Below, one piece after another: positions 2,500-62,808 of a stretch of DNA of 64,000 nucleotides. The DNA comes from an uncultured Bacteroidales bacterium. GTDB lineage: Bacteria; Bacteroidota; Bacteroidia; Bacteroidales; Muribaculaceae. The DNA lies in the NCBI GenBank assembly GCA_902776955.1, contig CACYSG010000001.1, forward strand, positions 1-64,000. Reading direction: 5' to 3'. Position numbers and translations under genes: made by a program. How positions within the stretch are numbered: the first letter of the stretch is position 1; every line of letters begins with the position of its first letter. Under the pieces are notes generated by a model, which saw only the letters and a program-made list of their open reading frames with translations, had not been told where the DNA came from and did not search any database.

Positions 2500-2915
2500 C
2501 AACCCCGGTCCCCCGCCGCCCGGTCGCCTGTGCCGTCGCTGTGCGACGGCCCCCGTCCATCACTCCCGCCGTTGTAGGGTCTCGCCTTGGCGTGGCCGTC
2601 GTCCGCCCCCGTGCCCTCTGTGCCCGGTCTTCCGCCGCCCGGTCGCCTGTGCCGTCGCTGTGCGACGGCCCCCTTTCAATCACTCCCGCCGCTGTATTGC
2701 CTCGCCTTGCCTTGCCGTCGTCCGCCTTCCGCCTCCCGGTCGCCTGTGCCGTCGCTCCGCGGCGGCCCCCGTCAATCACTCCCGCCGTTGTAGGGCCTCG
2801 CCTTGGCGTGGCCGTCGTCCGCCCCCGTGCCCTCTGTGCTCGGCCCCCCGCCTCCCGGTCGCCTGTGCCGTCGCTCTGCGGCGGCCCCTCCGTCAATCAC
2901 TCCCCAGTGGCAGTA
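2500..2915 (+). repeat. Family B GC-rich tandem repeat array (four units)
   Basis: Four degenerate units start at 2525, 2644, 2740 and 2860 (spacings 119, 96 and 120 bp). Each opens with CGCCTGTGCCGTCGC and carries a hairpin: GCCGTCGC-TGT-GCGACGGC at 2532-2550 and 2651-2669, and versions paired through a G-T wobble at 2748-2766 and 2867-2885. Between them lies CTCGCCTTGGCGTGGCCG with a CGCC/GGCG dyad. The + strand is strongly C-rich. The array fills the gap between bglX and the LuxR-type gene. Open frames across it are low-complexity Pro/Arg/Ala strings and not credible genes. Single copies of the same family occur at 7262 and, partly, at 31627. Confidence 0.9.
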
Positions 2916-3007
2916 TGCGCGGGGCAATCCCCCGGGCACCAACGGCCAAAAATTTAGGCTACGCCAAACGATTGGCATAGCCTATGAGACGCTGTTTTGT
3001 AATAGGG

Positions 3008-3226
3008 TTAGTCGTTGATCTTTAACAATCCTGTGCGGTAAGCTTTACCTATGAGTTCAGCAACGTTGCGCGAGTTGGTTTTGCGCAATAGTTGTTTGCG
3101 ATGATACTCCACAGTGTTTGAGGAGATGAATATTTTCTCTCCGATTTCCTTGCTGTTATACCCTGTTGACAGCAATTCAAGTACTTCCTTTTCTCTGGAA
3201 GTCAGTTCGATTTTGGGGGCACTCAT
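3008..3226 (-). CDS. Stand-alone LuxR/GerE-type HTH protein
   Basis: A 72-aa protein that is almost entirely one LuxR-family helix-turn-helix domain: LTSREKEVLELL (about 9-20), SKEIGEKIFISSNTVEYH (about 26-43) and a final helix. It should bind DNA as a dimer. There is no receiver, sensor or TPR part, and the AT-rich upstream DNA contains stops rather than a lost N-terminal domain. The length resembles GerE, or the detached C-terminus of the TPR/HTH regulators common in Bacteroidota. A TATTTTTG box lies about 45 bp upstream. Targets and signal are unknown. Confidence 0.8.
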   Translation of the reverse strand: MSAPKIELTSREKEVLELLSTGYNSKEIGEKIFISSNTVEYHRKQLLRKTNSRNVAELIGKAYRTGLLKIND

Positions 3227-3268
3227 AATATCACGATTTTTGATAAGATGCTAATTATAACATAATTG

Positions 3269-3276
3269 CAAAAATA
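3269..3276 (-). promoter_or_regulatory. -7 box for the solo LuxR-type gene
   Basis: Minus-strand TATTTTTG matches TAnnTTTG, 43 bp before the ATG, in an AT-rich stretch (3227-3400) that otherwise shows no gene or repeat. Confidence 0.45.
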
Positions 3277-3446
3277 AACAGGAATTATTACCAAACCAAA
3301 GAATTTTCAAATAAATTGGACAAAATGATATCAAAACTATGCATTTCAGTAGATAAAAATGAAAAAAAATCAATTTTTGGCATTAAAACGCCAAACTTTT
3401 GTCACGTTATGAAGGGGGGTTACTAACAAGATGTATAGTGTTTTTT

Positions 3447-4862
3447 TCAGAATTTGACGATGGCGATATGGTCGTTGATAATGGCCTCGTTGGGAGTGCC
3501 TATGTCGTTGATGTCCTCGAGGATACTACGCAGCACGGTACGTGCCATTCCATAGACCTTCAGCCGCAACGCGGCGCGGGCAAGGGGGCGTAGGATGCCT
3601 GTGATGGTTTCGCCCACCACGCCGTCCACGCCGTGGATGAGTTGATCGACGAGTTCGCGGTTGTCCTGGCCGCCCTCGTTACCCTGGGCAAAGGCCATAT
3701 AGGCATGGGTGACAGGCTCTTGCAGGTGGCGCAGTAGCACGTCGGCGATGCCGTCGGGTGTGTCGGGCAGGTGTACAAATCGTGCCACGATGGGGTGCTT
3801 GCCGCGGTACTTGGCGATGGCGTCGCTGATTTCGGGCCAGTAGCGCGAGAGCACGCCGCGGGTCATCGTGGGGATGCTCGCGGTGAAGGCGGCGTGGGCT
3901 CGTTCGTCGAAGGTGGGGTCTCCCGGCAACGAGTGCAGGGTTCCGGTGTGCAGCTGCATCTTGCAGGTGGCGGTGTTGCAGGTGACGATACGCCACTGGC
4001 AGGGATAACCCACCGCTGCTGCGGTGGCGATCTCGGTCATGCTGCCCTGGTCGTGGCTCGCCTGACTGATGTCGCTGATGTGGAGATGCCCGGTGAAGAT
4101 GGCATGGACATCGGCCTGGAGCAGCTGTTGGCACAGCGTGGCGGCATCGTTAACCACATAGGGGGCGGCTAGCGTGTCCTCCATGTGGAAGTGGGGAACG
4201 AGGTGGTGATGCATCATGGCGATGACGCGGCGACCGGCAGACGTGGCGGCGGCAGCCTGGTCTACGAGCCATTGGCGGGTCGAGGCCTCGAGGCGTCCGC
4301 TGGCTTTGGTGTGGTCACGGGAATCGCCGCGTGAGACGAACGTGTTCAGGCGGTCCATGCAGGCGTCGATGGCCAGGATGGTCAGGCGGTCGTTCACGTC
4401 GCGGCAATAGCTCAGCGAGTCGGGATCGCGGCGCGAAGCGCTGTCATAGCCCATCTGGTGGTAGAGGTCGGCAAACTCGCTGCGGCTGATGGTATCTGTC
4501 GGGGCGGTGTTGTCGCCGTCATAGGTCTTGGCGTCGGGGTTGTTGATGTCGTGGTTGCCGGGGACGACAAGCACTTGGATGCCGGCATCGGTCAGGTGGC
4601 TCAGCTGAGACACCACCAGCTCGTGGCTGGCGCGCTCTCCGTCCTTGGTGAGGTCGCCGGTGACCAGCACAATCTCGGGCTTGAGGTCAAGGATTTCTTT
4701 CACGAGTGTGTCCAGAATCGCGGCACTCTCGCGTAGCATCTTGCGGTCGCGGGCCAGGTACTCCTCAATGGCTTTGCCATCGTTGACAAGCAACTGCGGC
4801 GCCATCACGTGCAGGTCGCTGATGACCACCATCTTCAATATCTGATTTGACGTCTCGCTCAT
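3447..4862 (-). CDS. Calcineurin-like metallophosphoesterase
   Basis: Predicted cytosolic phosphoesterase with a di-metal centre. All motifs of the family are visible in order from the chosen start: SDLHVMAP (D-x-H), TGDLTKDGE (GDxx), PGNHDINN (GNHD), a MMHHHLVPH histidine cluster and FTGHLHISD (GHxH), followed by a 200-residue C-terminal part of unknown role. An upstream in-frame ATG at 4901 would add 13 low-complexity Asn/Lys-rich residues; the ATG at 4862 (MSETSNQ) looks better. The gene is monocistronic, divergent from the next gene, with a -7 box at 4948-4955. Substrate unknown; related proteins act on cyclic nucleotides or nucleotide phosphates. Confidence 0.85.
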   Translation of the reverse strand: MSETSNQILKMVVISDLHVMAPQLLVNDGKAIEEYLARDRKMLRESAAILDTLVKEILDLKPEIVLVTGDLTKDGERASHELVVSQLSHLTDAGIQVLVVPGNHDINNPDAKTYDGDNTAPTDTISRSEFADLYHQMGYDSASRRDPDSLSYCRDVNDRLTILAIDACMDRLNTFVSRGDSRDHTKASGRLEASTRQWLVDQAAAATSAGRRVIAMMHHHLVPHFHMEDTLAAPYVVNDAATLCQQLLQADVHAIFTGHLHISDISQASHDQGSMTEIATAAAVGYPCQWRIVTCNTATCKMQLHTGTLHSLPGDPTFDERAHAAFTASIPTMTRGVLSRYWPEISDAIAKYRGKHPIVARFVHLPDTPDGIADVLLRHLQEPVTHAYMAFAQGNEGGQDNRELVDQLIHGVDGVVGETITGILRPLARAALRLKVYGMARTVLRSILEDINDIGTPNEAIINDHIAIVKF

Positions 4863-4947
4863 GATTTGTGGCTTTGTTTTGTTGTTGCTGTTACTATTCA
4901 ACGCCGATTTCGCGACTCCTGGGCGAAGGCGGGCGTCCCTCGTGGGA

Positions 4948-4955
4948 CAAAGGTA
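4948..4955 (-). promoter_or_regulatory. -7 box for metallophosphoesterase gene
   Basis: Minus-strand TACCTTTG matches TAnnTTTG in the divergent intergenic region, upstream of both candidate start codons. Confidence 0.45.
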
Positions 4956-5038
4956 AGAAAAAGATTCTGTTTTCCCCGCTTTTTATCGTTAACTTTTTGC
5001 TCTGTAGGCTCTATTATATATTAAAAGGTGAAAAAATA

Positions 5039-5068
5039 TTGCTGGGCGGGAAATTTTGTTTAACTTTG
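5039..5068 (+). promoter_or_regulatory. Complete -33/-7 promoter of the NagB-like/LmbE gene
   Basis: TTG at 5039-5041, 19 bp, then TAACTTTG at 5061-5068 reproduces the Bacteroidetes promoter consensus with ideal spacing. It lies 28 bp before the ATG at 5096 and is one of the best promoter matches in the window. Confidence 0.7.
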
Positions 5069-5095
5069 CTAGATTGAAAAACTAAGGTAAAAAAG

Positions 5096-7066: not shown

Positions 7067-7116
7067 AAACCTCTCCCAATAACCGCAGGGCTCAAGTGTG
7101 ACGATGCCCTCCTGTA

Positions 7117-7138
7117 GAGACGCAAAAATTTGCGTCTC
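7117..7138. repeat. GTAGAGACGC palindrome, copy 1
   Basis: GAGACGCAAA, a 2-bp centre, then TTTGCGTCTC form a dyad with 10-bp arms, preceded by CTGTA. A near-identical palindrome is at 38965-38986. It lies about 50 bp after the NagB-like/LmbE stop and could act as a 3' hairpin. Confidence 0.75.
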
Positions 7139-7145
7139 CCACCGT

Positions 7146-7236
7146 AAGGCGTTACAAACTTCCTTCGCCCCAACGACCGGGGACGGCTCTTCTGGATGAA
7201 AAATGCCTGCATTTTTCGGACAGAAGAACCGTCCCC
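7146..7236. repeat. GGGGACGG dyad element with AAGGCGTTACAAAC flank, copy 1
   Basis: AAGGCGTTACAAAC (7146-7159) precedes a 58-bp nested inverted repeat at 7179-7236. Outer arms are GGGGACGG and CCGTCCCC, middle arms CTCTTCTG and CAGAAGAA (one mismatch), inner arms GAAAAATGC and GCATTTTTC. The same arrangement recurs at 25323-25467 in the same orientation. No ORF is inside. It looks like a small non-autonomous or REP-type repeat. Confidence 0.8.
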
Positions 7237-7261
7237 CCGTAATCAACGTAACCAAGATGTA

Positions 7262-7316
7262 TGCCCTCGCCTTGGCGTGCCCGGTCCCCTGTGCCGTCGC
7301 TCTGCGACGGCCCCCA
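7262..7316 (+). repeat. Family B repeat, single copy
   Basis: CTCGCCTTGGCGTGCCCGGT followed by the hairpin GCCGTCGC-TCT-GCGACGGC (7293-7311) and a C run. It is the same two-dyad unit as the array at 2500-2915 and in the same orientation. Confidence 0.8.
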
Positions 7317-7348
7317 TCAATATATTCTTCGCCTAATTATTTTAATTC

Positions 7349-7397
7349 GCGAAATTCGCATTAAAATAAATGATTTAGCGAATTTCGCATTAAAACA
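7349..7397. repeat. AT-rich direct repeat GCGAAWTTCGCATTAAAA
   Basis: Two copies (7349-7366 and 7378-7395) of a GCGAA-N-TTCGC dyad followed by ATTAAAA, just past the stop codon of the 421-aa gene. They may be 3'-end hairpins or protein-binding half-sites. Confidence 0.5.
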
Positions 7398-7400
7398 CGC

Positions 7401-8750: not shown

Positions 8751-8771
8751 TGCTTTTAGGGGGAATGTAGC

Positions 8772-9446
8772 TTAACCAAAAAAATCCTTCTTGTTGGATT
8801 GCCTGATGTTTTTCCTGCGTTCTTCGGTGGAAACACAGGGTTGTGCCATGACATCTTCCATCCTGTCCATCCACCTGAGGCGAGACCTGCGCTCCTTGGC
8901 AAACATGATTTGTGTGCCCTCCTCGCTCTTGTCAAACTGCAGGCTGTGGTCGATATGGAGCGAGAAGGCCACCTGCTCCACATCGTGGTCGGCACCGATG
9001 TAGGTGAATTGCCAGCCCTGCTCCTTGTAGCTGTCGATAAGCGACTTGAGGGCGGTGAGGCTGAACTCGCGTGAAGCGTTCTCATAGCCGTCGGTGATGA
9101 TGGTCACCAGCGCCAGCGAGTTATCGTCATTGCCCTTGAGCGCGTGAACACGGGTGATGGTGCTGCCCACGGCGTCATACAGCGGCGTCATGCAGCACGG
9201 GCGGTAGTCTCTGTCGGTGAGAGGGGCCGCCTCGTTCACGGGCACGTTGTCATAGATGGTCTTCATCTCGCAGCCGCAAAAGGCCACAAGCGTCACGATG
9301 TGTTTCTGGTCGGGGTTCTTTTCCTGGGCACTCTTGATCGAGCCGATGGTCTCGTTAACGCCATCGACGGCTTGACGGGCGATGCTGCTCATCGAGCCGC
9401 TCTTGTCAAGGATAATCACGTTGTAAACGGTAATTGGAGTTTTCAT
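8772..9446 (-). CDS. von Willebrand factor A domain protein
   Basis: 224-aa soluble protein that is essentially one VWA domain. The metal-ion-dependent adhesion site is complete: DKSGSMSS (14-21) gives D-x-S-x-S, a Thr follows in MTPLYDAVG, and ITDGYEN supplies the downstream Asp. The tail (about 180-224) is basic. There is no signal peptide or TM helix, so it should act in the cytosol, probably binding a protein partner, as VWA proteins of tellurite-resistance or chaperone systems do. A TACCTTTG box lies about 67 bp upstream. It precedes the 421-aa gene on the same strand; no AAA+ ATPase partner is visible nearby. Confidence 0.88.
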   Translation of the reverse strand: MKTPITVYNVIILDKSGSMSSIARQAVDGVNETIGSIKSAQEKNPDQKHIVTLVAFCGCEMKTIYDNVPVNEAAPLTDRDYRPCCMTPLYDAVGSTITRVHALKGNDDNSLALVTIITDGYENASREFSLTALKSLIDSYKEQGWQFTYIGADHDVEQVAFSLHIDHSLQFDKSEEGTQIMFAKERRSRLRWMDRMEDVMAQPCVSTEERRKNIRQSNKKDFFG

Positions 9447-9552: not shown

Positions 9553-9822
9553 ACCTTGCCGTTTTTCCCGTCCTCTCCGTTCCCTCCGTCCTCCCCGTCC
9601 TTTCCGTCCCCTCCGTCCTCTCCGTCCTCCCTCCACCTCCCCAGTGCCGCCAGTCCAGTACACAGCGATGCCATCGCTGTCCCCCCGCCTCTATGCCGCC
9701 CTGCTGTCCCGTGGGCGGCGGCTCTGCCGCCGTCTCCGCCCCGCCTCCCCTCCGTTATCTCCGTTATCTCCGTTTTTTCCGTCCTTTCCGTTCTTTCCGT
9801 TCTTTCCGTTATCTCCGTCCCC
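9553..9822 (+). repeat. Family C array plus family A hairpin pair
   Basis: In order on the + strand: a 9-nt-period pyrimidine array (TCCGTCCTC, TCCGTTCCC and similar, 9565-9640), the palindrome CAGCGATGCCATCGCTG (9663-9679), the hairpin CGGCGGC-TCT-GCCGCCG (9716-9732), and a second array of TCCGTTATC/TCCGTTCTT units (9751-9822). It lies between the divergent VWA and psd genes. ORFs through it are serine/proline/valine periodic artefacts. Confidence 0.9.
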
Positions 9823-20979: not shown

Positions 20980-21065
20980 CCCCGTTATATCCGTAATATC
21001 CGTTCCCTCCGTCATTTCCGTTATTTCCGTTATATCCGTTATATCCGTTATATCCGTCCCCTCCA
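20980..21065 (+). repeat. Family C 9-nt-period array
   Basis: About nine consecutive TCCGTNNNN units (TCCGTAATA, TCCGTTCCC, TCCGTTATT, TCCGTTATA) between the small ORF and the GNAT-like gene. No family A hairpins accompany this copy. Confidence 0.9.
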
Positions 21066-22230: not shown

Positions 22231-22253
22231 CCACCAGCCCTCCGCTCCCCCAT

Positions 22254-22330
22254 GCCGTGGCTCAGCCACGGCCCCATTGGCAAGAGGGAATGTAGAAAGG
22301 CGGTCGTCCGTGCCGTGGCTCTGCCACGGC
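22254..22330 (+). repeat. Two GCCGTGGC hairpins (family B-like)
   Basis: GCCGTGGC-TCA-GCCACGGC (22254-22272) and GCCGTGGC-TCT-GCCACGGC (22312-22330) are perfect 8-bp stems with 3-nt loops, each followed by CCCC. The design equals the family B hairpin GCCGTCGC-TCT-GCGACGGC with one compensated base pair. They separate the GNAT-like gene from pgi and could also act as terminators. Confidence 0.85.
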
Positions 22331-22373
22331 CCCAACAACAAGAGACATCAATAATTAAATAACTGTAACAGTC

Positions 22374-25322: not shown

Positions 25323-25467
25323 AAGGCGATACAAACTCGTAACGGAAAAGGGGACGGCTCTGCTGGATGAAAAATGCCATCATTTTTCGTACAGCAGACC
25401 CGTCCCCCCGTAATAAAAACCGCCCTCACAAGGCGTTACAAACCCCTTCTCGCAAGGCGATACAAAC
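25323..25467. repeat. GGGGACGG dyad element with three AAGGCGWTACAAAC flanks, copy 2
   Basis: AAGGCGATACAAAC (25323-25336), the nested inverted repeat 25350-25407 (outer GGGGACGG/CCGTCCCC, then GCTG/CAGC, inner GAAAAATG/CATTTTTC), then AAGGCGTTACAAAC (25430-25443) and AAGGCGATACAAAC (25454-25467). It matches 7146-7236 in sequence and orientation and abuts the start codon of the next gene. Confidence 0.8.
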
Positions 25468-27177: not shown

Positions 27178-27420
27178 TGCCGCCAGTTCAGTACGCAACG
27201 ATGCCATCGCTGCCCCCCCGTCCCCCCGCCGTCCCGCCACCCCCGCTCTGCCACCCCTGCTGTCCCGTGGGCGGCGGCTCTGCCGCCGTCTCCCGTTCTT
27301 TCCGTTCTTTCCGTTATCTCCGTTCCCTCCGTTTTCTCCGTTTTCTCCGTTCTCTCCGTTCTTTCCGTGCCGCCTCCCCCGTGCCGCTTGTTCAGTATGC
27401 AGCGATGCCATCGCTGCCCC
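27178..27420 (+). repeat. Family A/C composite repeat
   Basis: A variant palindrome CAACGATGCCATCGCTG (about 27196-27212), the hairpin CGGCGGC-TCT-GCCGCCG (27272-27288), a 9-nt array (TCCGTTCTT, TCCGTTATC, TCCGTTTTC; 27292-27370), and a second, perfect palindrome CAGCGATGCCATCGCTG (27400-27416). The gap 27043-27629 otherwise holds only AT-rich promoter DNA. Confidence 0.9.
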
Positions 27421-27584
27421 CCGCATCCCGTAAATTCCATGCGATTTCCCCTCCTCCCACCATTGTAAAGAACTTAGATTTTCACAAGCCATCATTCTCA
27501 CTAATTCCCTCACAACCACCACTTTACCCCTTCAATAAAGTTTGATTTTTCTTTGAGGGCCTTAACTATCATATATTAATGTAT

Positions 27585-31594: not shown

Positions 31595-31626
31595 ATCCCT
31601 CCTCCCAGCGTTCCCCGCCACTGTAG

Positions 31627-32010
31627 GGCCTCGCCTTGGCGTGGCCGCCACCCGTTCTATCCGTTCTATCCGTTATTTCCGTTTTCTCCGTTCTATCCGT
31701 TTTTTCCGCCTTTGCGGCCGCCCACAATAATCCTTCGCGCCTTCGCGCCTTTGCGTGGTGCCTCCCCGTTTTCTTCGTTATCTCCGCCTTTGCGGCCGCC
31801 CACAATAATCCTTCGCGCCTTCGCGCCTTTGCGTGGGGCCACCCGTTCTATCCGTTATCTCCGCCTTTGCGGCCGCCCACAATAATCCTTCGCGCCTTTG
31901 CGCCTTTGCGTGGGCTCCGTCCGCCGTTTTCTCCGTTTTCTCCGTTTTCTCCGCATTTGCGGCCGCCCAAAATAATCCTTCGCGCCTTCGCGCCTTTGCG
32001 TGGGGCCTCC
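31627..32010 (+). repeat. Family D tandem array with family B and C pieces
   Basis: Opens with GGCCTCGCCTTGGCGTGGCC (family B dyad, 31627-31646) and TCCGTTNTN units. Then four copies of a unit starting at 31705, 31783, 31860 and 31950 (spacings 78, 77 and 90 bp): CCGCCTTTGCGGCCGCCCA, an AATAATCCTT link, then CGCGCCTTCGCGCCTTTGCG and TGG. TCCGTTTTC-type 9-mers separate the units. All copies are on the + strand. Frames through it encode repetitive non-genes. Confidence 0.92.
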
Positions 32011-32067
32011 CCGTTTAAAATCCATGTCATAAAACTCTTTAATATTGTCCTAAAATGCGTTAATGGT

Positions 32068-34550: not shown

Positions 34551-34714
34551 CAACTGTTCAGTACACAGCGATGCCATCGCTGTCCCCCGGCCGTCCCGTC
34601 CCCCCCCCGTTCTCCCCGTTTTTTCCGTCCCCTCCGTTCTTTCCGTTCTCTCCGTCCCGTCCCCCCAGCAATGTCGCCCCTGCTGTCCCGTGGGCGGCGG
34701 CACTGCCGCCGTCT
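34551..34714 (+). repeat. Family A/C composite repeat
   Basis: Palindrome CAGCGATGCCATCGCTG (34566-34582), then an array of TCCGTCCCC/TCCGTTCTT 9-mers (34608-34660), then the hairpin CGGCGGC-ACT-GCCGCCG (34695-34711). Here the array sits between the two dyads. The rest of the 34340-34824 gap shows no gene. Confidence 0.9.
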
Positions 34715-36410: not shown

Positions 36411-36577
36411 CCCGTTCTCTCCGTTATATCCGTCCCCTCCGTTATTTCCGTTATCTCCGTTCTCTCCCCAGTGACAACTGTCCAGTACACAGCGATGCCA
36501 TCGCTGTCCCCCAGTCGTCCTGTCCCGCGGCAATTCCGCCCCTGCTGTCCCGTGGGCGGCGGCACTGCCGCCGTCTC
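36411..36577 (+). repeat. Family C/A composite repeat
   Basis: An array of 9-mers (TCCGTTATA, TCCGTCCCC, TCCGTTATT, TCCGTTATC) starts 12 bp after the POT stop codon, then CAGCGATGCCATCGCTG (36489-36505) and CGGCGGC-ACT-GCCGCCG (36557-36573). Confidence 0.9.
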
Positions 36578-39001: not shown

Positions 39002-39043
39002 AACTATTAACTATTAACTATTAACTATTAACTATTAACTCTT
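39002..39043. repeat. 8-bp tandem repeat abutting the pheT stop
   Basis: Five copies of AACTATTA(ACT) followed by two CTTATCT words run directly into the pheT stop codon. Probably prone to slippage. Confidence 0.85.
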
Positions 39044-39048
39044 ATCTC

Positions 39049-41514
39049 TTATCTCAGCTTGGCTCCCAGCTGGCTCTCCAGGTTCTTGATAATCTTGCTC
39101 ATGATCGCATCAATCTGCTTGTCGTTGAGGGTCTTCTCGTTGTCTTGCAGAATCATGCTGATGGCATACGACTTCTTGCCGGCCTCCAGCTTCTTGCTCT
39201 CATAGACGTCAAACAACGTCATCGACTTCAACAGCTTCTTCTCGGTGCTCTCGACCACGCGGCGGATGTCGTCATAGGTCACGTTGGTGTCCACCAGCAG
39301 CGCCAGGTCGCGGCGCAGCGGCAGCGTCTTGGGCAGGTCGGCATACTTGATGTCCTTCTTCATCGCCAGTTTGCAGGCGAGGTTCCAGTTGATCTGAGCA
39401 TAATAGACGGGCTGGTCCACGTCAAATTTCTTAGCCAGCGCCTCGTCAACGACACCCATCACGGCGATGGTCTTGCCGCCGCGGTTGCTGTAGCGCAGGG
39501 CGGGGTTGACGGTATCGTCCTCATACTGCTCGACAACGAGGTCGTTGAGGTTGATGCCCATGTTGGCGAACACGTTCTCCAGGTCGGCCTTCAGGTCATA
39601 GACGTTCAGCGCCCTCACCTTGTCGGCCCACGACTCGTCGTGGTTGTTGCCGGTGAGCCACATCGCCATCTGGGTGCTCTCGCTGTAGGGGGCGAGGGCC
39701 TTCTCCTCCTGGCTGATGCTGCCGTCGTGGCTATAGACGTTACCAAACTCATACAGCCTCAGGTTGGGGTTCTTGTGGTTGATGTTGCGGGCGATGCTCT
39801 CAAGGCCGCCGAACAACAGCGTCTGGCGCATGACGTTCAGGTCGCTGCTCAGGGGGTTCATGATGCGCACGCACAACTCGGCGGGATAGGTCGTCAGGCC
39901 CTCATAGTAGGCGCCCACGGTGAGCGAGTTGTTCATGATCTCGTGATAACCCACGCTGGTGAGCTGGTTGCTCACGGTCTCCTGCATGTCGTCGCGGTAG
40001 TCCACGTCGGTCTTGTTCGACAGGCTGCTGTGTACCTCGCTGGTGAACTCGACGTTGTTGTAGCCATACACGCGCAGGATGTCCTCGACCACGTCACACG
40101 GGCGCTGCACGTCAACGCGGTAGGGAGGAACGACGATTTGCAACTTCTCCTCGTCTTCGGCCTTGATTTCCATCTCCAGGCTCTCGACGATGCTGCGGAT
40201 GACGTCGTGGGGGATGTCCTTGCCGATAAGGCGCTTGACGTAGTCATAGCTCAGTTCCACGGGGAAGCCGGGGAAGTCATGGGCCTTGACATCGATGATA
40301 TCGCCGCAGATTTCTCCACCGGCCACCTCCTTGACAAGCATAGCGGCAAGCTTGAGGTTATAAATGACGCTGTTGGGGTCGATACCGCGCTCAAAGCGGA
40401 ACGATGCGTCGGTGTTCAGGCCGAAACGGCGGGCGGTCTTGCGGATCCACGTGGGGTGGAAATAGGCCGACTCCAGGAACACGTCGGTGGTCGATTCGGT
40501 GACTCCCGAGTCAAGACCGCCGAACACGCCACCGATGCACATCGGCTCCTCGCCGTTGCAGATCATCAGGTCGCGGTCGGTCAACGTGCGCTCAACGCCG
40601 TCGAGGGTGACAAATTTGGTGCCTGCATCCACGGTCTTGACAACGATGCGGTCGCCCTTGACCTTGGCCAGGTCAAAGCAGTGCATGGGCTGTCCGGTGC
40701 CCAGCAATATATAGTTGGTGATATCGACAATGTTGTTGATGGGACGCTGGCCCACGGCGAGCAGCAGGTCCTTCAGCCACTTGGGGCTCTCCTGAACCTT
40801 CACGCCGCGGACGGTCAAGCCGGCATAGCGCGGGCAGGCCTCGGCGTTCTCTACGCTGACGGGAATGCCGCCGTCAGTGCGGTCGATGGCAAAGGCGTCA
40901 ACACTGGGGCGATGCAGGTTACCGTCCATACCGTGGCGCTTCATCCAAGCTGCCAGGTCACGGGCAACACCGTAGTGCGAGCCGCCGTCGATGCGGTTGG
41001 GCGTGAGGTCCACCTCGATGAGGTAATCATCCTCGATGCCGTAGTAGTCGGCTGCGGGGGTGCCCACCACGGCCTCCTCGGGCAGGACGATGATACCGTC
41101 GTGGCTGCTGCCAACGCCAATCTCGTCCTCGGCACAGATCATACCCAGCGACTCCTCGCCGCGCATCTTGCTGCGCTTGATGGTGAATTCCTGGTCGCCG
41201 TCATACAGCTTCGTGCCCAGCGTGGCAACGATGACTTTCTGGCCGGCGGCGACATTGGGCGCTCCGCACACGATCTGTACAGGGTCGTTGCCGTCACCCA
41301 GGTTCACCGTCGTGATGTGCAGGTGATCGCTGTTGGGATGGTCGATGCAGGTCACTACCTGACCCACAACCAGGCCACGCAGCCCGCCCTTGATGGTTTC
41401 TACTTGTTCTACTGCTCCCACTTCCAGACCCAGCGAGGTCAGCGCCTCGGCCACCTGTTCAGGCGTCAGGTCGGTGTCGATGTAGCGTTTGAGCCACTTA
41501 TAGGAAATATTCAT
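39049..41514 (-). CDS. pheT: Phenylalanyl-tRNA synthetase beta subunit
   Basis: Beta subunit of the (alpha-beta)2 enzyme charging tRNA-Phe. In order: N-terminal region MNISYKWLKRYIDTDLTP, the tRNA-binding OB domain (about 40-155, VGQVVTCIDHPNSDHLHITTV), the B3/B4 editing domain (about 215-390), B5 (about 405-480), the core, and the C-terminal anticodon-binding ferredoxin-fold domain (about 725-821, DLPKTLPLRRDLALLVD). 821 aa is the expected size. pheS is not adjacent. A TAACTTTG box lies 37 bp upstream. Confidence 0.96.
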   Translation of the reverse strand: MNISYKWLKRYIDTDLTPEQVAEALTSLGLEVGAVEQVETIKGGLRGLVVGQVVTCIDHPNSDHLHITTVNLGDGNDPVQIVCGAPNVAAGQKVIVATLGTKLYDGDQEFTIKRSKMRGEESLGMICAEDEIGVGSSHDGIIVLPEEAVVGTPAADYYGIEDDYLIEVDLTPNRIDGGSHYGVARDLAAWMKRHGMDGNLHRPSVDAFAIDRTDGGIPVSVENAEACPRYAGLTVRGVKVQESPKWLKDLLLAVGQRPINNIVDITNYILLGTGQPMHCFDLAKVKGDRIVVKTVDAGTKFVTLDGVERTLTDRDLMICNGEEPMCIGGVFGGLDSGVTESTTDVFLESAYFHPTWIRKTARRFGLNTDASFRFERGIDPNSVIYNLKLAAMLVKEVAGGEICGDIIDVKAHDFPGFPVELSYDYVKRLIGKDIPHDVIRSIVESLEMEIKAEDEEKLQIVVPPYRVDVQRPCDVVEDILRVYGYNNVEFTSEVHSSLSNKTDVDYRDDMQETVSNQLTSVGYHEIMNNSLTVGAYYEGLTTYPAELCVRIMNPLSSDLNVMRQTLLFGGLESIARNINHKNPNLRLYEFGNVYSHDGSISQEEKALAPYSESTQMAMWLTGNNHDESWADKVRALNVYDLKADLENVFANMGINLNDLVVEQYEDDTVNPALRYSNRGGKTIAVMGVVDEALAKKFDVDQPVYYAQINWNLACKLAMKKDIKYADLPKTLPLRRDLALLVDTNVTYDDIRRVVESTEKKLLKSMTLFDVYESKKLEAGKKSYAISMILQDNEKTLNDKQIDAIMSKIIKNLESQLGAKLR

Positions 41515-41558: not shown

Positions 41559-41609
41559 CAATATTTTCATCTAACCACCAACCCTATCAACAGAAAAGAA
41601 TCATTCCCA

Positions 41610-41776
41610 TCCTCTCCATCCTCTCCATCCCCCCATAATCTCCGTTATTTCCGTCTTCTCCGTTATTTCCGTATTCTCCGTTCCCTTCGTTTTTTTCGTC
41701 CCCTCCGTTCCCTCCGTTTTCCGTTTCCTCCGTTATCTCCGTTATCTCCGTTATCTCCGTTCCCTCCGTCCCCCCG
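41610..41776 (+). repeat. Family C 9-nt-period array
   Basis: After two CCTCTCCAT words comes a long run of TCCGTTATT, TCCGTCTTC, TCCGTTCCC and three identical TCCGTTATC units. The pyrimidine strand is again the + strand although both neighbours are minus-strand genes. No family A hairpins here. Confidence 0.92.
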
Positions 41777-44341: not shown

Positions 44342-44419
44342 ACATTTTCCCCCAAATCCCACAACACTTTAAAACGACCCCCCATTTCCCCCATCCCTCC
44401 TCCGCCCCCCGTCCCCCAG

Positions 44420-44705
44420 GGGACCCCTGTCCAGTATACAGCGATGCCATCGCTGTCCCCCGTCATCCCCTGTTGTCCTTCGCCGTCCCGCTATGCCGCC
44501 CCTGCTGTCCCGTGGGCGGCGGCTCTGCCGCCGTCTCCCCGCCGTCCCCCGTTATATCCGTTCCCTCCGTTATATCCGTTTCCCCTCCACCCCCCGTTCC
44601 CCCCAGGGGACGCCTGTTCTGTATACAGCGATGCCATCGCTGTCCCCTCGCCGTCCCGCTCTGCCGCCCCTGCTGTCCCGTGGGCGGCGGCTCTGCCGCC
44701 GTTCA
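44420..44705 (+). repeat. Two tandem family A units with family C spacer
   Basis: Unit 1: CAGCGATGCCATCGCTG (44439-44455) and CGGCGGC-TCT-GCCGCCG (44517-44533). A short TCCGTTCCC/TCCGTTATA array (about 44550-44582). Unit 2: CAGCGATGCCATCGCTG (44626-44642) and CGGCGGC-TCT-GCCGCCG (44685-44701). Each unit is introduced by CCAGGGGAC(C/G)CCTGT-like sequence. Units are 187 bp apart. Confidence 0.92.
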
Positions 44706-44724
44706 ACAGCTGCACCCAGCAAAA

Positions 44725-49822: not shown

Positions 49823-50130
49823 ATAAACGCAGCGTTTTAACTAAACCCCCTTGTTTTCTATCTTTTTGATGCATTTGCATTTTTATTAAAAAATAATGTC
49901 ATTTATTGACTCTGCTTCAATTTAACACACTGATAAATAACCAATTAAGTGCAAGAAATAGCCGTTTTCGGTAGCTTTGGCCCCCAATTCAAAAATATGT
50001 TAATAAAAACACCTTTTAACAATCTCATTTTAACTAAATCCACCCAATAATAAATGATGCCCCCAAAGCCTAAAACCGCCCTAAATATAACTACTAGTGC
50101 CCATAAAAACCGTCCCCCCGTCCCCCCCGT
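49823..50130. other. AT-rich upstream region of susC
   Basis: About 300 bp of AT-rich DNA between the susC promoter and the next repeat. I see no gene or obvious ECF-sigma-type promoter; operator sites for a regulator could be here. Confidence 0.4.
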
Positions 50131-50415
50131 GACGCCTGTCCTGTATACAGCGATGCCATCGCTGTCCCCCGCCATCCCGCCGCTGTCCCGTCACCGCCGC
50201 TATTCCGCCCCTGCTGTCCCCCGCTGTCCCGTCACCGCCGCTATTCCGCCCCTGCTGTCCCCCGCTGTCTCGCCACCCCCGCTATGCCGCCCCTGCTGTC
50301 CCGTGGGCGGCGGCTTTGCCGCCGTCACCCCCGTCTCCCCTGTTTCCCCCGTTCTCTCCGTAATATCCGTCCCCTCCGTAATATCCGTCCCCTCCGTAAT
50401 ATCCGTTTTCCCCGC
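50131..50415 (+). repeat. Family A/C composite with internal duplication
   Basis: CAGCGATGCCATCGCTG (50148-50164), then about two and a half copies of a roughly 42-bp unit (GCTGTCCCGTCACCGCCGCT, then ATTCCGCCCCTGCTGTCCCCC), the hairpin CGGCGGC-TTT-GCCGCCG (50308-50324), and an array alternating TCCGTAATA and TCCGTCCCC (50355-50412). The linker between the two dyads is expanded compared with other copies. Confidence 0.9.
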
Positions 50416-53990: not shown

Positions 53991-54034
53991 ATTCCTAACT
54001 CCTAACTCCTAACTCCTAATTCCTAACTCCTAAA
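53991..54034. repeat. 8-bp tandem repeat between exbB and exbD
   Basis: Five or six copies of CCTAACTC (one variant CCTAATTC) end directly at the exbB stop codon. Same class as 39002-39043 and 59724-59750. Confidence 0.85.
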
Positions 54035-55701: not shown

Positions 55702-55867
55702 ACCATTATTTTTCACATAGCTGTGATAACGAATGTGAATTTTGCCAAAAAAAACCTTTACCATCCCCCCACAATCCAGATAACCCCTTCACCCCCCGCG
55801 TCCTCCCGCGTCCTTCCCGGCTCCCGCGAGTCCTTCCCCCGTCCTCGCCCCCCGTCCCCCCAAGGGG

Positions 55868-56595
55868 GACGCCTGTTCAGTAAACAGCGATGCCATCGCT
55901 GTCCCCCTGCTGTCCCGTAACCGCTGTCCCGCCCCTGCCGCTATGCCACCCCTGCTGTCCCGTGGGCGGCGGCTCTGCCGCCGTCACCCCCGCCCGTCCC
56001 TTCCGTTATATCCGTTTTCTCCGTTCTCTCCGTTCTCTCCGTCTCCCCGTTTTCCCCGCCCCTCCATCCATCCCCTGTGCCGCCTGTCCTGTATTCAGCG
56101 ATGCCATCGCTGTCTCCCGCTGTCCCGCCCCCGCCGCTATGCCACCCCTGCTGTCTCGTGGGCGGCGGCTCTGCCGCCGTCACCCCCTTCCGTCCGTCTC
56201 CCGCGAGTCCTTCCCCCGTCCCCGTCCCCCAAGGGGGGCGCCTGTCCAGTATACAGCGATGCCATCGCTGTCCCCCTGCTGTCCCGCAACCGCCGTCCCG
56301 CCCCCGCCGCTCTGCCACCCCTGCTGTCCCGTGGGCGGCGGCATTGCCGCCGTCACCCCCTCCCGTCCGTCTCCCTCGAGTCCTTCCCCCGTCCGCGCCC
56401 CCCGTCCCCCAATGGGGACGCCTGTTCAGTATACAGCGATGCCATCGCTGTCCCCCCGCTGTTCCGCACCCGCCGCTCTGCCGCTCCCGCTGTCTCGTGG
56501 GCGGCGGCACTGCCGCCGTCACCCCCGTCACCCCCGTCCGTCCGCGCCCGTCCTCCCCCCGTATTTTCCGTTTTCTCCGTAATATCCGTTCCCCA
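55868..56595 (+). repeat. Largest family A cluster: four units with family C arrays
   Basis: Four palindrome/hairpin pairs in tandem: 55885-55901 with 55967-55983 (loop TCT); 56096-56112 with 56163-56179 (TCT); 56254-56270 with 56336-56352 (loop ATT); 56434-56450 with 56502-56518 (loop ACT). All palindromes are CAGCGATGCCATCGCTG and all stems CGGCGGC/GCCGCCG. TCCGTTATA/TCCGTTCTC arrays lie at about 56003-56045 and 56565-56592. Units are separated by linkers rich in GTCTCCCGCGAGTCC and CCAAGGGGACGCCTGT. Units 3 and 4 are 180 bp apart, like the pair at 44.4 kb. Confidence 0.93.
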
Positions 56596-56686: not shown

Positions 56687-56755
56687 AGCAGTTTGGATGA
56701 TGTGTGTTTCTCTAATTTAAGGAATACCTAATTATTTAAAATCTAAACATTTCTC

Positions 56756-57226: not shown

Positions 57227-57266
57227 ATGTTTAGATTTTGACTATGCTATGTTTAGATTTGCGATG

Positions 57267-57297
57267 CAAAATTACGTCAATTTGTTGAATTGACCAA
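57267..57297 (-). promoter_or_regulatory. -33/-7 promoter of the DUF3244-like gene
   Basis: Minus-strand TTG (57297-57295), 20 bp, TAATTTTG (57274-57267), about 40 bp before the ATG. Confidence 0.6.
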
Positions 57298-57404
57298 ATT
57301 TTATCGTAATACAAGGTGGTTTTAATGAACTGATTTATAATAAGTTGTAAAAAAAAATCTAATACGCGATAATACAACTTCATTTTTTGAGTCCAAAAAT
57401 GCTT

Positions 57405-59123: not shown

Positions 59124-59133
59124 CATCCAAATG

Positions 59134-59141
59134 CAAAGATA
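59134..59141 (-). promoter_or_regulatory. -7 box of the TPR/HTH regulator gene
   Basis: Minus-strand TATCTTTG matches TAnnTTTG. It overlaps the longest possible ORF start and leaves almost no 5' leader before ATG 59126/59123, so the mRNA may be leaderless or nearly so, or another promoter is used. Confidence 0.45.
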
Positions 59142-59238
59142 CACATTTTTTCTATGTCATCGCACTTTTTGACAAAATATTACTTGAATCCATCATTTTG
59201 GGCAATCTCTGTCTAACCCTATATTAATAAGGTGTACT

Positions 59239-59691
59239 TTACTCCTTCAGGCGGCTGTCGATGATGATGGTCACGGGGCCGTCGTTGATGAGCGCTACCT
59301 GCATCTCGGCGCCGAAGACACCTCGTTGCGTCGGTTTGCCCAGCAGCTGTGCTACCTCGTCGCAGTAGGCCTCATACAGCGGCACTGCCAGGTCGTGGCC
59401 CGCAGCGTGGATATAGCTGGGGCGGTTGCCCTTCTTGGTCGAGGCGTTCAGGGTGAACTGGCTCACGGCCAGCACTTCGCCTCCGGCATCGATGATGCTG
59501 CGGTTCATCACACCCTGCTCGTCGTCAAAGATGCGCAGGTTCACCGTCTTCTGCGCCAGCCAGCGCATGTCGTCAAGGGTATCACCCTCACGGACGCCCA
59601 CCAGCACCATCAGCCCGTGGCCGATGGTGCTGTGCACTTGTCCGTCGATGGTGACCGAAGCTTCAGTCACCCGTTGTATCACAATTCTCAT
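59239..59691 (-). CDS. dtd: D-aminoacyl-tRNA deacylase
   Basis: 150-aa enzyme that removes D-amino acids from mischarged tRNA. MRIVIQRVTEASVTIDGQ at the start, the SQFTLNAST motif near residue 78 and the C-terminal FGAEMQVALINDGPVTIIID with a Gly/Pro-type loop are diagnostic. It follows the ABC permease gene after a 59-bp gap filled by a 7-bp repeat and is probably co-transcribed with the exporter. Confidence 0.95.
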   Translation of the reverse strand: MRIVIQRVTEASVTIDGQVHSTIGHGLMVLVGVREGDTLDDMRWLAQKTVNLRIFDDEQGVMNRSIIDAGGEVLAVSQFTLNASTKKGNRPSYIHAAGHDLAVPLYEAYCDEVAQLLGKPTQRGVFGAEMQVALINDGPVTIIIDSRLKE

Positions 59692-59723
59692 TTTTTTATT
59701 CGCTATCTAGTCATTTGTAGCAA

Positions 59724-59750
59724 GTCTAACGTCTAACGTCTAATGTCTAA
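59724..59750. repeat. 7-bp tandem repeat abutting the permease stop
   Basis: Four copies of GTCTAAC (one GTCTAAT) end at the permease stop codon. Same class as 39002-39043 and 53991-54034. Confidence 0.8.
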
Positions 59751-61064
59751 CTATCTCAGCCAATTGAAAAGGTCCTTAAAGCTGGCCTTCTTACCGTAGC
59801 TCAGGATACCGCGGCGGTAGATGCGCGCGGCGAGCCATACGATGGCTAGTGCCGTAATAATCAGCAGCACATGGCTCAGGATGATCTGCCAAATCGGGAC
59901 ATCAAACGGTAGCCTTACCATCATCACGGTGGGGGCGGTGAACGGTATGATCGAGCACCAGAATGCCATCGGCCCGTCGGGATTCTCGGCGCAACCCATT
60001 GCGGCATAGAAGGAGAAGATCATGAGCAGCATCACGGGAGTCAGGAACTGCGAGGTGTCGCTGGCCTGGTCCACTGCCGAACCGAGGGACGCAAAGATGG
60101 CGCAGTACAGCAGATAGCCCTCAATAAAGTAGAGCAGGAAGTTGATGATGATGGGCGTGTAGTTGATGGCCAGGGCTTGCCTCATGAAACTGGCGAATTC
60201 GCCTTCAACCTCAGGGGTTACCGCTGCGCCGGCTCCCATCATGTCGGGGCTGGGCACGGCACCGCTGACGCCTAACAGACTGCCGCCGATAGTACCGGCA
60301 ATGCCTAGCAGTACAATCCAGATGGCCATCTGGGTCAGCACCGACAAGCCTACGCCGATGATTTTTCCCATCATGAGATGGAATGGCCGGCAACTGCTCA
60401 CCACCACCTCGACAATGCGGTTGGTTTTCTCCTCAACGACATTGTTCATGATCATCGTGCCGCTGAAGAATACAAACCAGAAGATAATCAGCGAGAGTAT
60501 GATGCCCAAGAACAAGGCAATGTCAGTCGAGGCCTCTTCTTCGTCACCGGTATCGCTCCACTTGATGGCGTGAATGTCGATGTTGACGTGAGCCTTGTCC
60601 ACAATCTGCTGCAGGTTGGGTATGCCCATGGCGGCCAGGTGCGCGCTCTCGATAGTGTCGGTCAGCGCGTTCTTGACGGTAGATTCCAGGGCGGGAATGA
60701 TGGTGCCCTCGCTATAAATGTTGACCACGCCAGTGCTGTCCACATCGCGTGGAATGATGATCACGGCACTGATGCTGCCCTTAGACTTGTCGTAGAAATC
60801 GCGGGCATTGGTCACGGTGTCTCCGTTGATGGCGACAAAGTTGAACTTGTTGTCGTTAGGCAAGGCGGCGGCATATCGTCCCGTCTCATCGATGACGGCA
60901 ATCTGTTGCATTTGGTCGCCCTTGTCGTTCATGTAGGCCATCAAAATGGGGATAGACCCAATGGCAATCATCAAGAATGGGAATAGCAAAGTCAAGATGA
61001 TGAATGACTTGCGCCCGACAATCGACATGTATTCGCGGGCTATGATGAGGCGGAGCTTATTCAT
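59751..61064 (-). CDS. ABC-2 type exporter permease (NatB-like)
   Basis: 437 aa. One membrane helix at the N-terminus (about 20-42), a large periplasmic region (about 45-180), then five or six helices (about 185-430): the ABC-2 architecture of NatB/YhaP-type exporters. MNKLRLIIAREYMSIVGRKSFI is the usual cytosolic start. The start overlaps the ATPase gene by 8 bp, so the two are coupled. Substrate could be sodium, a lipid or a small molecule; not decidable. Confidence 0.9.
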   Translation of the reverse strand: MNKLRLIIAREYMSIVGRKSFIILTLLFPFLMIAIGSIPILMAYMNDKGDQMQQIAVIDETGRYAAALPNDNKFNFVAINGDTVTNARDFYDKSKGSISAVIIIPRDVDSTGVVNIYSEGTIIPALESTVKNALTDTIESAHLAAMGIPNLQQIVDKAHVNIDIHAIKWSDTGDEEEASTDIALFLGIILSLIIFWFVFFSGTMIMNNVVEEKTNRIVEVVVSSCRPFHLMMGKIIGVGLSVLTQMAIWIVLLGIAGTIGGSLLGVSGAVPSPDMMGAGAAVTPEVEGEFASFMRQALAINYTPIIINFLLYFIEGYLLYCAIFASLGSAVDQASDTSQFLTPVMLLMIFSFYAAMGCAENPDGPMAFWCSIIPFTAPTVMMVRLPFDVPIWQIILSHVLLIITALAIVWLAARIYRRGILSYGKKASFKDLFNWLR

Positions 61065-61974
61065 TGTTCTCAGTGTTTTTGGATTTGACGGTCTCGATGA
61101 AAATCTCGTTCATGCTGGGAAGCACCTCGGTGAATCCGGTCAGGTGGTAGCGCTCGTTGAGCCAGCTGATGGCGTCACGCGCGTTCACTCCTTGGGCAAG
61201 TTTGATGCGGGTGTCACTCTTCCTCACGGGGTCGGGGGGGAGAAGGGTAAACATCTCGGGATTGGGCTCGACGGTGTCGGGAGTCTGCACGGCGATGATG
61301 TTTTTCTTGTGCTGTTGCTTCACCTCGTCGACACTGCCGGTGAGCACCACCTGGGCATGGTTCAACAGGGTGATCTGCTGGCAGATTTCCTCAACCGACG
61401 CCATGTTGTGGGTCGAGAACAGGATGGTGCTGCCCTGGTCGCGCAGGGCGAGGATCTCCACCTTCAGCTGCTCGGCGTTCACGGGGTCGAAGCCCGAAAA
61501 CGGCTCGTCAAAGATCAACAGCGGCGGACGGTGGATCACGGTGCCGATAAACTGCACCTTCTGCTGCATTCCCTTCGACAGGTTCTCAACCTTCCTGTTT
61601 TCCCACTCCTTGAGGTCAAAACGGTCGAGCCACCAGTGCATCGAGGCAACGGCGTCGGCCTTGGTCATGCCCTTCAGGCGACCCAGATAGACGATGTGGT
61701 CGCCCACCTTCATTTTCTTATACAGACCTCGTTCCTCGGGCAGGTAGCCGATGTGAGTGATGTCGTTGTCGGTCATCTTCTTGCCGTTGAGGGTAACAGT
61801 TCCCTCGTCGGCGGCGATAATGCGGTTGATGATACGTATCAGGGTACTCTTGCCGGCGCCGTTGGGCCCCAGCAGGCCATAGATACAACCCTCGGGCACC
61901 TCCATCGAGACGCCCGACAGGGCCGTGTGCCCCTCGTATCGCTTCACCACGTTGTTAATGTCTAGGTAAGCCAT
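61057..61974 (-). CDS. ABC transporter ATP-binding protein (NatA-like)
   Basis: 305 aa: Walker A GPNGAGKST (about 36-44), Q-loop near YLPEERGLYKKM, signature LSKGMQQKVQ (about 134-143), Walker B LLIFDEP (about 153-159), switch His in LFSTHNMASVEE. The C-terminal part (about 225-305) is the DUF4162-type domain of NatA/YhaQ-like exporters. Powers the overlapping permease. A TATTTTTG box lies about 30 bp upstream. Confidence 0.94.
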   Translation of the reverse strand: MAYLDINNVVKRYEGHTALSGVSMEVPEGCIYGLLGPNGAGKSTLIRIINRIIAADEGTVTLNGKKMTDNDITHIGYLPEERGLYKKMKVGDHIVYLGRLKGMTKADAVASMHWWLDRFDLKEWENRKVENLSKGMQQKVQFIGTVIHRPPLLIFDEPFSGFDPVNAEQLKVEILALRDQGSTILFSTHNMASVEEICQQITLLNHAQVVLTGSVDEVKQQHKKNIIAVQTPDTVEPNPEMFTLLPPDPVRKSDTRIKLAQGVNARDAISWLNERYHLTGFTEVLPSMNEIFIETVKSKNTENNE

Positions 61975-62002
61975 TGTATTCTCAGTTTTTGTTGTTTTGT
62001 TG

Positions 62003-62010
62003 CAAAAATA
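62003..62010 (-). promoter_or_regulatory. -7 box of the ABC exporter-dtd operon
   Basis: Minus-strand TATTTTTG matches TAnnTTTG, 29 bp before the ATPase ATG. Confidence 0.55.
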
Positions 62011-62092
62011 GTCTTTTTTGCCTATTAGACGCTTCAGGTGGGTAAAAAACTACATCATTCCAAAAAAAAATTCGGGCTCAGGCCAACAAAGC

Positions 62093-62131
62093 GGGCCACA
62101 GGTACTCATCCGGGAGTTTCACCTGCGGCCC
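62093..62131. repeat. Inverted repeat between the ABC operon and the small ORF
   Basis: GGGCCACAGGT and ACCTGCGGCCC pair with one mismatch across a 17-nt loop. It lies 140 bp past the stop of the 29-aa ORF. The minus strand has a T9 tract about 25 bp further on, too far for a standard terminator. The rest of 61975-62272 shows no gene. Confidence 0.45.
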
Positions 62132-62272
62132 ACTTCATGGGAATGATACTTTATTGGTCCCCTAACGTCACGCTCTTGCGTGTGGCAGCTCCAGTTTCAT
62201 CAGTTACATACTGTAGGGCTCTTATAAATAATTAGGTATTCGCTTGATAATTATGAAACGTCGCCGGGGGCA

Positions 62273-62362
62273 TCAGCCCCAGCTGATGAAAATCGTCGAG
62301 AGTAATGTGATGACTGCGATGGCAATCATTGTGAGAGATACGATGCAAACTTGCGTGTCCAT
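62273..62362 (-). CDS. 29-aa single-helix membrane peptide
   Basis: ATG at 62362 opens a 29-codon frame starting MDTQVCIVSLTMIAIAVITL and ending TGA. After four polar residues it is one hydrophobic helix (about 5-26). A TAATTTTG box at 62438-62445 with a TTTG at 62467-62470 (21-bp spacing) would give a 70-nt leader. A small hairpin (CATCAGC/GCTGATG, 62271-62288) overlaps the stop codon. The longer 61-codon frame includes the promoter and is rejected. No homologue is recognised. Confidence 0.5.
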   Translation of the reverse strand: MDTQVCIVSLTMIAIAVITLLSTIFISWG

Positions 62363-62437
62363 AATAGTGTCGTTTTTAGTTGTTACTGTCGGTTGTTTGT
62401 TGCTGGCGCGGGATTCCTTCTCCGCGTTTTGCTGATA

Positions 62438-62470
62438 CAAAATTAAGGTGTGCCCCATCCACCCGACAAA
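62438..62470 (-). promoter_or_regulatory. Promoter of the 29-aa peptide gene
   Basis: Minus-strand TTTG (62470-62467), 21 bp, TAATTTTG (62445-62438). Spacing is 1-2 bp longer than usual. Confidence 0.45.
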
Positions 62471-62596
62471 TATTTTTTATCAATAATCGCCAATTGTCCA
62501 ATTATTTTACACTAAAGTGTCTAATTTTTTTACAGATGCTCACAACCACCACCCAATAAACCACAATAAATTGATTAATATACCCCCCGTCCCTCC

Positions 62597-62808
62597 AGGG
62601 GACGACTGTACAGTACACAGCGATGCCATCGCTGTCCCCCGCTTGTCCCGCCCCCCCGCAATGCCTCCCCTGCTGTCCCCCGTCCCGCTCCGCCGCCCTG
62701 CTGTCTCGTGGGCGGCGGCTCTGCCGCCGTTTTCTCCGTCCTCTCCGTTCCCCCGTTTTCTCCGTTTTCTCCGTTCTCTCCGTTCTCTCCGTTCTCTCCG
62801 TTTCCCGC
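62597..62808 (+). repeat. Family A/C composite repeat
   Basis: CCAGGGGACGACTGT leader, CAGCGATGCCATCGCTG (62618-62634), CGGCGGC-TCT-GCCGCCG (62713-62729), then an array of TCCGTCCTC, TCCGTTTTC and three TCCGTTCTC units (62734-62803). Both neighbours are minus-strand genes, yet the pyrimidine strand is +. Confidence 0.92.

Follow-up and report, generated by a model that had tools for sequence, protein, structure and literature searches.

Intergenic repeats sharing a regional orientation in an uncultured Bacteroidales genome, and a possible link to replication

The window analyzed here comprises the first 64,000 bases of contig C1 (CACYSG010000001.1; 128,401 bp) in the assembly GCA_902776955.1 of an uncultured Bacteroidales bacterium, a draft of 3,233,168 bp in 123 contigs that is 89.7% complete. 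Its intergenic spaces contain clusters of short C-rich repeats. For tens of kilobases several unrelated families of these repeats all face one way, and further along C1 they reverse as a group; we tentatively infer that the direction of replication is the common cause. Repeat orientation may thus show chromosome copying deciding which way repeats are gained or kept. If replication sets the orientation that persists, strand-biased gain and loss of repeats can be studied here as in a natural experiment, each of several families bearing separate witness, and the repeats would help to place origin and terminus where assemblies of uncultured gut bacteria are fragmented. If the cause is local copying instead, they are an unusual case of regionally confined repeat spread.

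Repeat families and loci of the window

Family A was split into the A1 core and A2, a GGCGGC hairpin; family B consists of GCCGTCGC hairpin units, family C of pyrimidine-rich 9-bp tandem arrays with TCCGTTNTN units, and family D of the motif CTTCGCG inside 78-bp units. A first-pass annotation of the window had named these four families at 14 loci and claimed that their C-rich strand is always the + strand. Two further families display the same orientation pattern: E, with the sequence TAGGGCCTCGCCTTGGCGTGGCC, and F, a palindrome present once near 7.2 kb and again near 25.4 kb. Matches to A2, B, C, E and F were grouped into clusters within 600 bp, and the weaker of two overlapping opposite-strand matches to a near-palindrome was discarded. 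Because the A1, B and F cores are near-palindromic, their strand rests on center bases and flanks; because A, C, D and E often occur in one composite, loci and not families are to be counted.

All loci named in the first pass are present, and the common orientation holds across the window: all 15 clusters lie on the + strand whatever the gene strand, as do 12 of 12 exact A1 cores, 12 of 12 A2 hairpins, all C-array matches and D units among the matches listed, and five clear B units, with two weaker ones at 22.25 and 22.31 kb. The accompanying claim that flanking genes point both ways is borne out at the 12 C-array loci, six of which are located between two − genes, three between two + genes and three between divergent genes. 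The four families do not, however, serve as independent witnesses, since A, C, D and E share composites. The loci are the following.

2513..2900, +: B-type hairpins (four GCCGTCGC units) together with two E units, at 2576 and 2792
7180..7316, +: F palindrome (7195), degenerate E (7260) and B hairpin (7291)
9559..9818, +: C arrays on both sides of A1 (9662) and A2 (9706) hairpins
20982..21057, +: C array of TCCGTTNTN units, flanked by two + genes
22240..22340, + (near-palindromic, strand weakly defined): two weak B-like hairpins (GCCGTGGC), flanked by two + genes
25350..25417, +: second F palindrome, 90% identical to the one at 7179
27195..27422, +: composite of A1, A2, C array and A1
31599..32016, +: E unit, C array and four 78-bp units containing D (CTTCGCG)
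34565..34713, +: A1, C array and A2
36412..36575, +: C array, A1 and A2
41607..41769, +: C array, flanked by two − genes
44403..44712, +: two A1-A2 composites and a short C array, flanked by two − genes
50112..50406, +: A1, A2 and C array, flanked by two − genes
55806..56589, +: four A1-A2 composites and C arrays, flanked by two − genes
62582..62803, +: A1, A2 and C array, flanked by two − genes

The array between the genes at 8772-9446 and 9953 occurs, in the same orientation, in only one (L025) of the 30 loci compared (L001-L030 of 80), a few of which end before the site. The nearest public records of one gene come from genomes labeled Prevotellaceae, Muribaculaceae, Porphyromonadaceae or Bacteroidales, with rumen or other ruminant gut a common source. 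Short 7-bp tandem repeats (AACTATT, TCCTAAC, GTCTAAC) lie beside gene ends at 39002-39051, 53993-54033 and 59724-59751.

The orientation switch on contig C1

The uniformity stops outside the window, with reversed copies at 97.6-122 kb. The 20 loci of A2, C and E on C1 form a run of 15 on the + strand up to 79.1 kb, followed by 5 on the − strand from 97.6 kb; the chance of at most one switch among 20 random loci is 3.8e-5. A1, A2, C, D, E and F are present on either side of the switch, all flipped, with near-palindromes echoing weakly on the opposite strand; family G is found on the right side only, and B is represented there by one weak reversed match at 122 kb. A sequence-blind search, in which the segment with the most C over G in each intergenic space was scored, identified 12 + segments up to 77.9 kb and 5 − segments from 85.1 kb at scores of 12 or more. 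One of the 12, at 77.4 kb, falls within a longer mfd frame and may thus be coding in part.

The fourfold-site skew residual on C1 (GC minus AT, corrected for coding strand, repeats excluded) reaches a sharp cumulative minimum between two genes, one centered at 78.5 kb and the other at 80.1 kb; this point falls between mfd and ctp, the latter being our name for the gene of a C-terminal processing peptidase (NCBIfam). The GC difference is -0.130 to the left (95% bootstrap interval -0.236 to -0.035) and +0.290 to the right (0.135 to 0.460), and the AT difference is as expected on either side, the left interval spanning zero. Given that the skew falls mainly at 16-50 kb and rises mainly beyond 100 kb, the minimum is located only to within tens of kilobases. 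Fourfold-site GC (GC4) skew on C1 is -0.364 for genes of the C-rich strand versus -0.201 for those of the other strand, with AT skew also as expected.

Chance or an assembly artefact, with few independent loci and a chimeric or mis-binned C1, would be a very unlikely source of this pattern. The genome is a fragmented, incomplete draft, and the exact A1 core (14 copies) is confined to C1, which makes up 4% of the genome; but so orderly an arrangement of 20 loci has the small probability given above, ctp on C1 is the sole match in the source genome at E 1e-100, 9 of 12 relatives share the side of ctp on which mfd lies, and polarity is seen on contig C18 and in relatives as well.

The confinement of A1 also speaks for local co-oriented spread, whereby a composite cassette would be recopied regionally in direct orientation, and flips would be inversions or mark the position of a founder. 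C arrays are densest on C1 (among the matches listed), and the composites reuse A1, A2 and C, as such copying would predict. We nonetheless consider this scenario rather unlikely: on C1, the reversal of A and C is shared by E, F and D; on each of C18, C14, C34 and C2, unrelated families situated apart from one another have matching orientations; and coding skew matches polarity elsewhere. Moreover, the gene order across the switch (63.9-77 kb, including mfd; ctp; then genes at 98.5 and 100.1 kb) is largely kept in the relatives G052, G059, G068 and G071, so the flip is no recent inversion relative to them. Near the switch, the source genome (G000) nevertheless has about 15 kb of its own, and the 98.5-kb gene is turned.

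The C1 switch is possibly located at or near a replication origin. A conserved switch at ctp, considered from arrays on both sides in G050 and on the left in G054, G053 and G052, was withdrawn because the mfd-side arrays lie within the mfd coding sequence. Within 25 kb of ctp in 11 relatives, C-rich segments scoring 8 or more number 9 + and 6 − on the left and 4 + and 12 − on the right (p 0.07), and those scoring 10 or more number 3 + and 3 − on the left and 2 + and 6 − on the right (p 0.58); several of the left segments represent one orthologous site. G080 is GC-negative left of ctp, with mfd on the other side, and G004 is negative on both sides. In the latter, a closed genome with ctp at 1.859 Mb, 20 sampled places gave weak, noisy skew, with a hint in the AT residual of a change somewhere within 1.44-1.62 Mb.

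Two features of this region deserve separate mention. Just right of ctp are two tRNA genes of equal score and nearly identical sequence, about 40 bp apart (L081 17122-17195 and 17235-17308). A hairpin family on the right side (GCCGTCGCCGATCTCGGCGATGGC on the − strand) recurs in three similar intergenic spaces (L083 10269-10628, 13172-13589 and 16307-16773), which adjoin a run of three large + genes of similar size, possibly paralogs.

Repeat polarity, base skew and gene direction

With the source genome in 123 contigs, there is no replichore map, and orientation beyond C1 was compared between neighboring loci. Adjacent C, E and A2 loci outside C1 agree in 26 cases and differ in 10 (p 0.011; 0.004 by orientation shuffling); for C alone the counts are 7 same and 3 different and for E alone 13 and 7, neither significant. 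The set behind these figures is incomplete, with E taken from 100 of 122 matches and C from 100 of 129 plus places from 100 of 148; inverted pairs and mixed clusters (15; 22 when D is included) were left out. Family D is mixed outside C1 (adjacent loci: 0 same, 2 different), and its inclusion gives 27 versus 14 (p 0.06). Orientation is uniform across families on C18 (+ in 9 of 9 over 90 kb), C14 (4 of 4), C34 (4 of 4) and C2 (3 of 3), and C3 carries three − loci and one +. A reversed-pattern control gave no matches in the source genome, one each in the relatives G030 and G039 and two in G220.

We then compared polarity with local coding GC skew. Intragenic arrays, pairs and single-unit matches were left out of the array and skew tests, and regions with mixed polarity close by out of the gene skew test; skew counts omit an array-bearing pdxB-like gene and genes of 300 bp or less. 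Regions of relatives were sampled around array matches, picked for many matches, or around ctp. Agreement was found for 36 of 46 intergenic, unpaired C arrays of at least two units outside C1 in a first batch, for 43 of 59 in both batches combined, and for 30 of 41 loci when all families on the genome's own contigs outside C1 were taken together. Sequence-blind C-rich segments agree in 33 of 41 cases on the other own contigs and 51 of 79 in relatives at scores of 10 or more, and in 13 of 17 and 35 of 52 at scores of 8-10; for ordinary intergenic spaces, scoring below 8, the figures are 96 of 167 and 271 of 513. In a baseline-free test of 51 regions outside C1, GC4 skew is -0.318 for genes on the C-rich strand versus -0.234 for those on the other, a difference of -0.084 (interval -0.130 to -0.037) that amounts to -0.106 in relatives alone and -0.053 on own contigs alone, where the interval includes zero. 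On average, the C-rich strand is G-poorer at silent sites of neighboring genes.

The explanation that we tentatively favor, at somewhat less than an even chance, is that the repeats are selfish or neutral and that their gain or loss is biased by replication strand. They would belong to the intergenic kind exemplified by repetitive extragenic palindromic (REP) sequences and bacterial interspersed mosaic elements (BIMEs), that is, GTAG-headed palindromes and other GC-rich hairpins, together with 9-bp tandem arrays. Such hairpin-forming or slipping single-stranded repeats would mostly be acquired or retained in a single orientation relative to the fork, either through single-strand transposases (Y1/HUH type) that insert into the lagging-strand template or through loss by slippage of arrays in the opposite orientation. 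Orientation-dependent loss by slippage is familiar from work on palindromes and triplet repeats. The repeats would need no cellular function, and the C1 switch (79.1-97.6 kb) would lie at or near an origin, or at some other point beyond which forks traverse the sequence in the opposite direction. The broader proposition, that replication direction orients many unrelated families and that repeat polarity could be used, independently of base skew, to map which way forks travel in this lineage's draft genomes, is possible but doubtful.

A number of results weigh against a replicative cause. Contig C11 contains a second origin-type switch (++ then --), and orientations are mixed on C4, C20, C26, C30 and C95. 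A pre-set replication in new relatives, sampled in 20 of 40 planned regions, found only 7 of 13 C arrays in agreement with skew (these loci lie on 13 contigs, so locus counts equal contig counts). Without C1 and C18, agreement on own contigs is 20 of 31 and the GC4 difference is -0.020, with an interval spanning zero; on C1 itself, agreement depends on the baseline, being 13 of 13 C loci with the pooled one and 19 of 25 clusters with that of the own genome. AT4 skew follows expectation on C1 and runs opposite to it elsewhere, and for array loci outside C1 the combined GC-AT measure agrees at 36 of 54, versus 41 of 54 for GC alone. At least one weaker C-rich segment left of the switch, at about 70.9 kb (score 10.8), is reversed. 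Among the 12 relatives, a C1-like GC flip at ctp occurs only in G054, and 9 of the 12 have no GC-negative side left of ctp. A scan of C1 for DnaA boxes yielded 24 sites at one mismatch or fewer with no 1-kb bin holding three, and dnaA is located on C18, not C1. No window family occurs, at the mismatches allowed, in the three loci of about 3.3 kb (some 1.5 kb on each side) around the Y1 transposase genes of the source genome. Finally, coding sequence outside C1 slightly favors the C-rich strand (56% own, 55% relatives), and of the 35 array sites there that lie between tandem genes, 27 have the C-rich strand as sense. The share of coding sequence on the G-rich strand is 69% on C1 left of the switch, 56% right of it and 44-45% elsewhere; gene direction, tried as a marker of the leading strand, was of no help.

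This sense-strand bias is what would be expected if pyrimidine-rich 9-bp arrays acted on RNA downstream of genes, for instance as Rho-loading sites rich in C and poor in G or as paired two-way hairpin terminators, since orientation would then follow transcription. Inverted pairs of C arrays are also suggestive in this respect: the purine arm comes first in 19 of 19 close pairs chosen by eye among the matches listed, and one that was folded forms a long hairpin of -33.9 kcal/mol. The sense rule is followed, however, at only 3 of 9 tandem-gene sites on C1, C-rich segments of any sequence do not clearly favor the sense strand (19 of 28 own, p 0.09; 25 of 48 in relatives), and arrays lie in frame inside several protein genes. 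We regard a transcript-linked role as improbable.

Taken together, the regional polarity is real, and the evidence for replication as its cause is moderate, not decisive. The suggestion of the first-pass annotation that the G-rich strand may be the leading strand is partly supported, by a polarity that is regional and blind to gene strand on C1, with a single switch near the skew minimum and the G-rich strand on the leading side, and by the agreement of gene GC skew with polarity outside C1; the mixed contigs, the C11 switch, the 7 of 13 of the pre-set replication, the AT skew and the DnaA and dnaA results tell against it. The genome-wide check of switches against skew that it had proposed likewise divides into one clean case, on C1 near the cumulative skew minimum, and the contrary ones of C11 and the five mixed contigs.

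The nature of the repeats and their relation to known systems

Family E is REP-like, of the GTAG class: GTAG is followed by an imperfect 20-base palindrome with one stem mismatch. The tag directly adjoins the palindrome in 20 of the 25 own copies and in 13 of the 17 copies from relatives (sampled stretches, at most 3 mismatches). The same core is present in relatives. Each strand of E gives a fold with a mismatched stem, at -7.4 kcal/mol (z -2.5) and -6.7 kcal/mol (z -2.2), and the family has 122 matches genome-wide at up to 2 mismatches (67 +, 55 −), with frequent inverted pairs and at least 14 clusters in which copies of opposite orientation lie no more than 500 bp apart. When folded, A1 and A2 form strong hairpins; a single C array has no fold.

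Arrays of family C also occur within protein genes. The gene at C1:97115-98440 of the source genome, G000 (L082 13115-14440), which we take to be pdxB, has more than 100 extra residues from in-frame C arrays and D units; a shorter in-frame array occupies the same place in G047, the G050 gene has a third C match and that of G055 none. In-frame C-type arrays were detected in other protein genes too (G050:C21:153281, G000:C2:41173, G054:C42:65256, G067:C14:51615 and G050:C24:31707). Hosts of such further intragenic arrays, in which the purine strand is mostly sense, include mfd in G054 and, presumably, lspA, polA and a membrane protein or enzyme gene. These intragenic copies suggest mobile or slippage-driven sequence rather than a terminator or segregation signal.

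The source genome has three Y1 (HUH-type) transposase genes. Two were scanned against NCBIfam IS200, one scoring above the cut-off and one just below. One Y1 protein has NHVH and YIHQNP motifs like those of REP-type groups, and two resemble a group listed without REP structures, in the available portion of PMC6006769. The association typical of REP-associated tyrosine transposases (RAYTs), a transposase gene flanked by the same palindrome, was sought at the three Y1 loci and found at none. Two Y1 genes (L202, L203) are surrounded by GC-rich sequence, palindromic or repeated, that differs from the window families and may represent repeat partners of these genes. Among the literature matches listed, none has a title or abstract opening concerned with these repeats or with a rule governing how REP-like elements are oriented regionally.

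Among known oriented elements, KOPS (FtsK-orienting polar sequences) and Chi are skewed and G-rich on the leading strand. The first-pass annotation had suggested a comparable duty for the window repeats, which are likewise skewed and oriented, with uniform polarity and the G-rich strand on the putative leading strand; a polar segregation or recombination signal would be selected to point along the replichore. Unlike KOPS and Chi, the window repeats are clustered and matchless in most genomes of the genus: family C is found in 37 of 101, with no match (1 mismatch allowed) in 64. Of 226 genomes of the family (own, or at least 90% complete), 19 contain a longer pattern, and these all belong to the same genus; the longer pattern occurs in 0 of 177 genomes from 25 other genera. 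Because the repeats are patchy even within the genus, this duty is not supported, and with the exact A1 core on one contig, the density, genome-wide spread and conservation of KOPS are lacking; we consider such a signal highly improbable.

Rickettsia palindromic elements are repeats that lie in frame inside protein genes. Window-type repeats do so as well, but here they are mainly 9-bp tandem units. Family E resembles the GTAG class of REP elements, described in the accessible text of PMC3733652, and BIMEs and REPINs, in its GTAG head, palindrome, high copy number and inverted pairs; it differs from them in that no E copy lies beside Y1 genes and that single copies share a regional orientation on several contigs. 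For the IS200/IS605 insertion sequences, a preference for the lagging strand is stated for two members in PMC6006769; if the window repeats were to insert into that strand's template in the same way, they would all come to face one way with respect to the fork.

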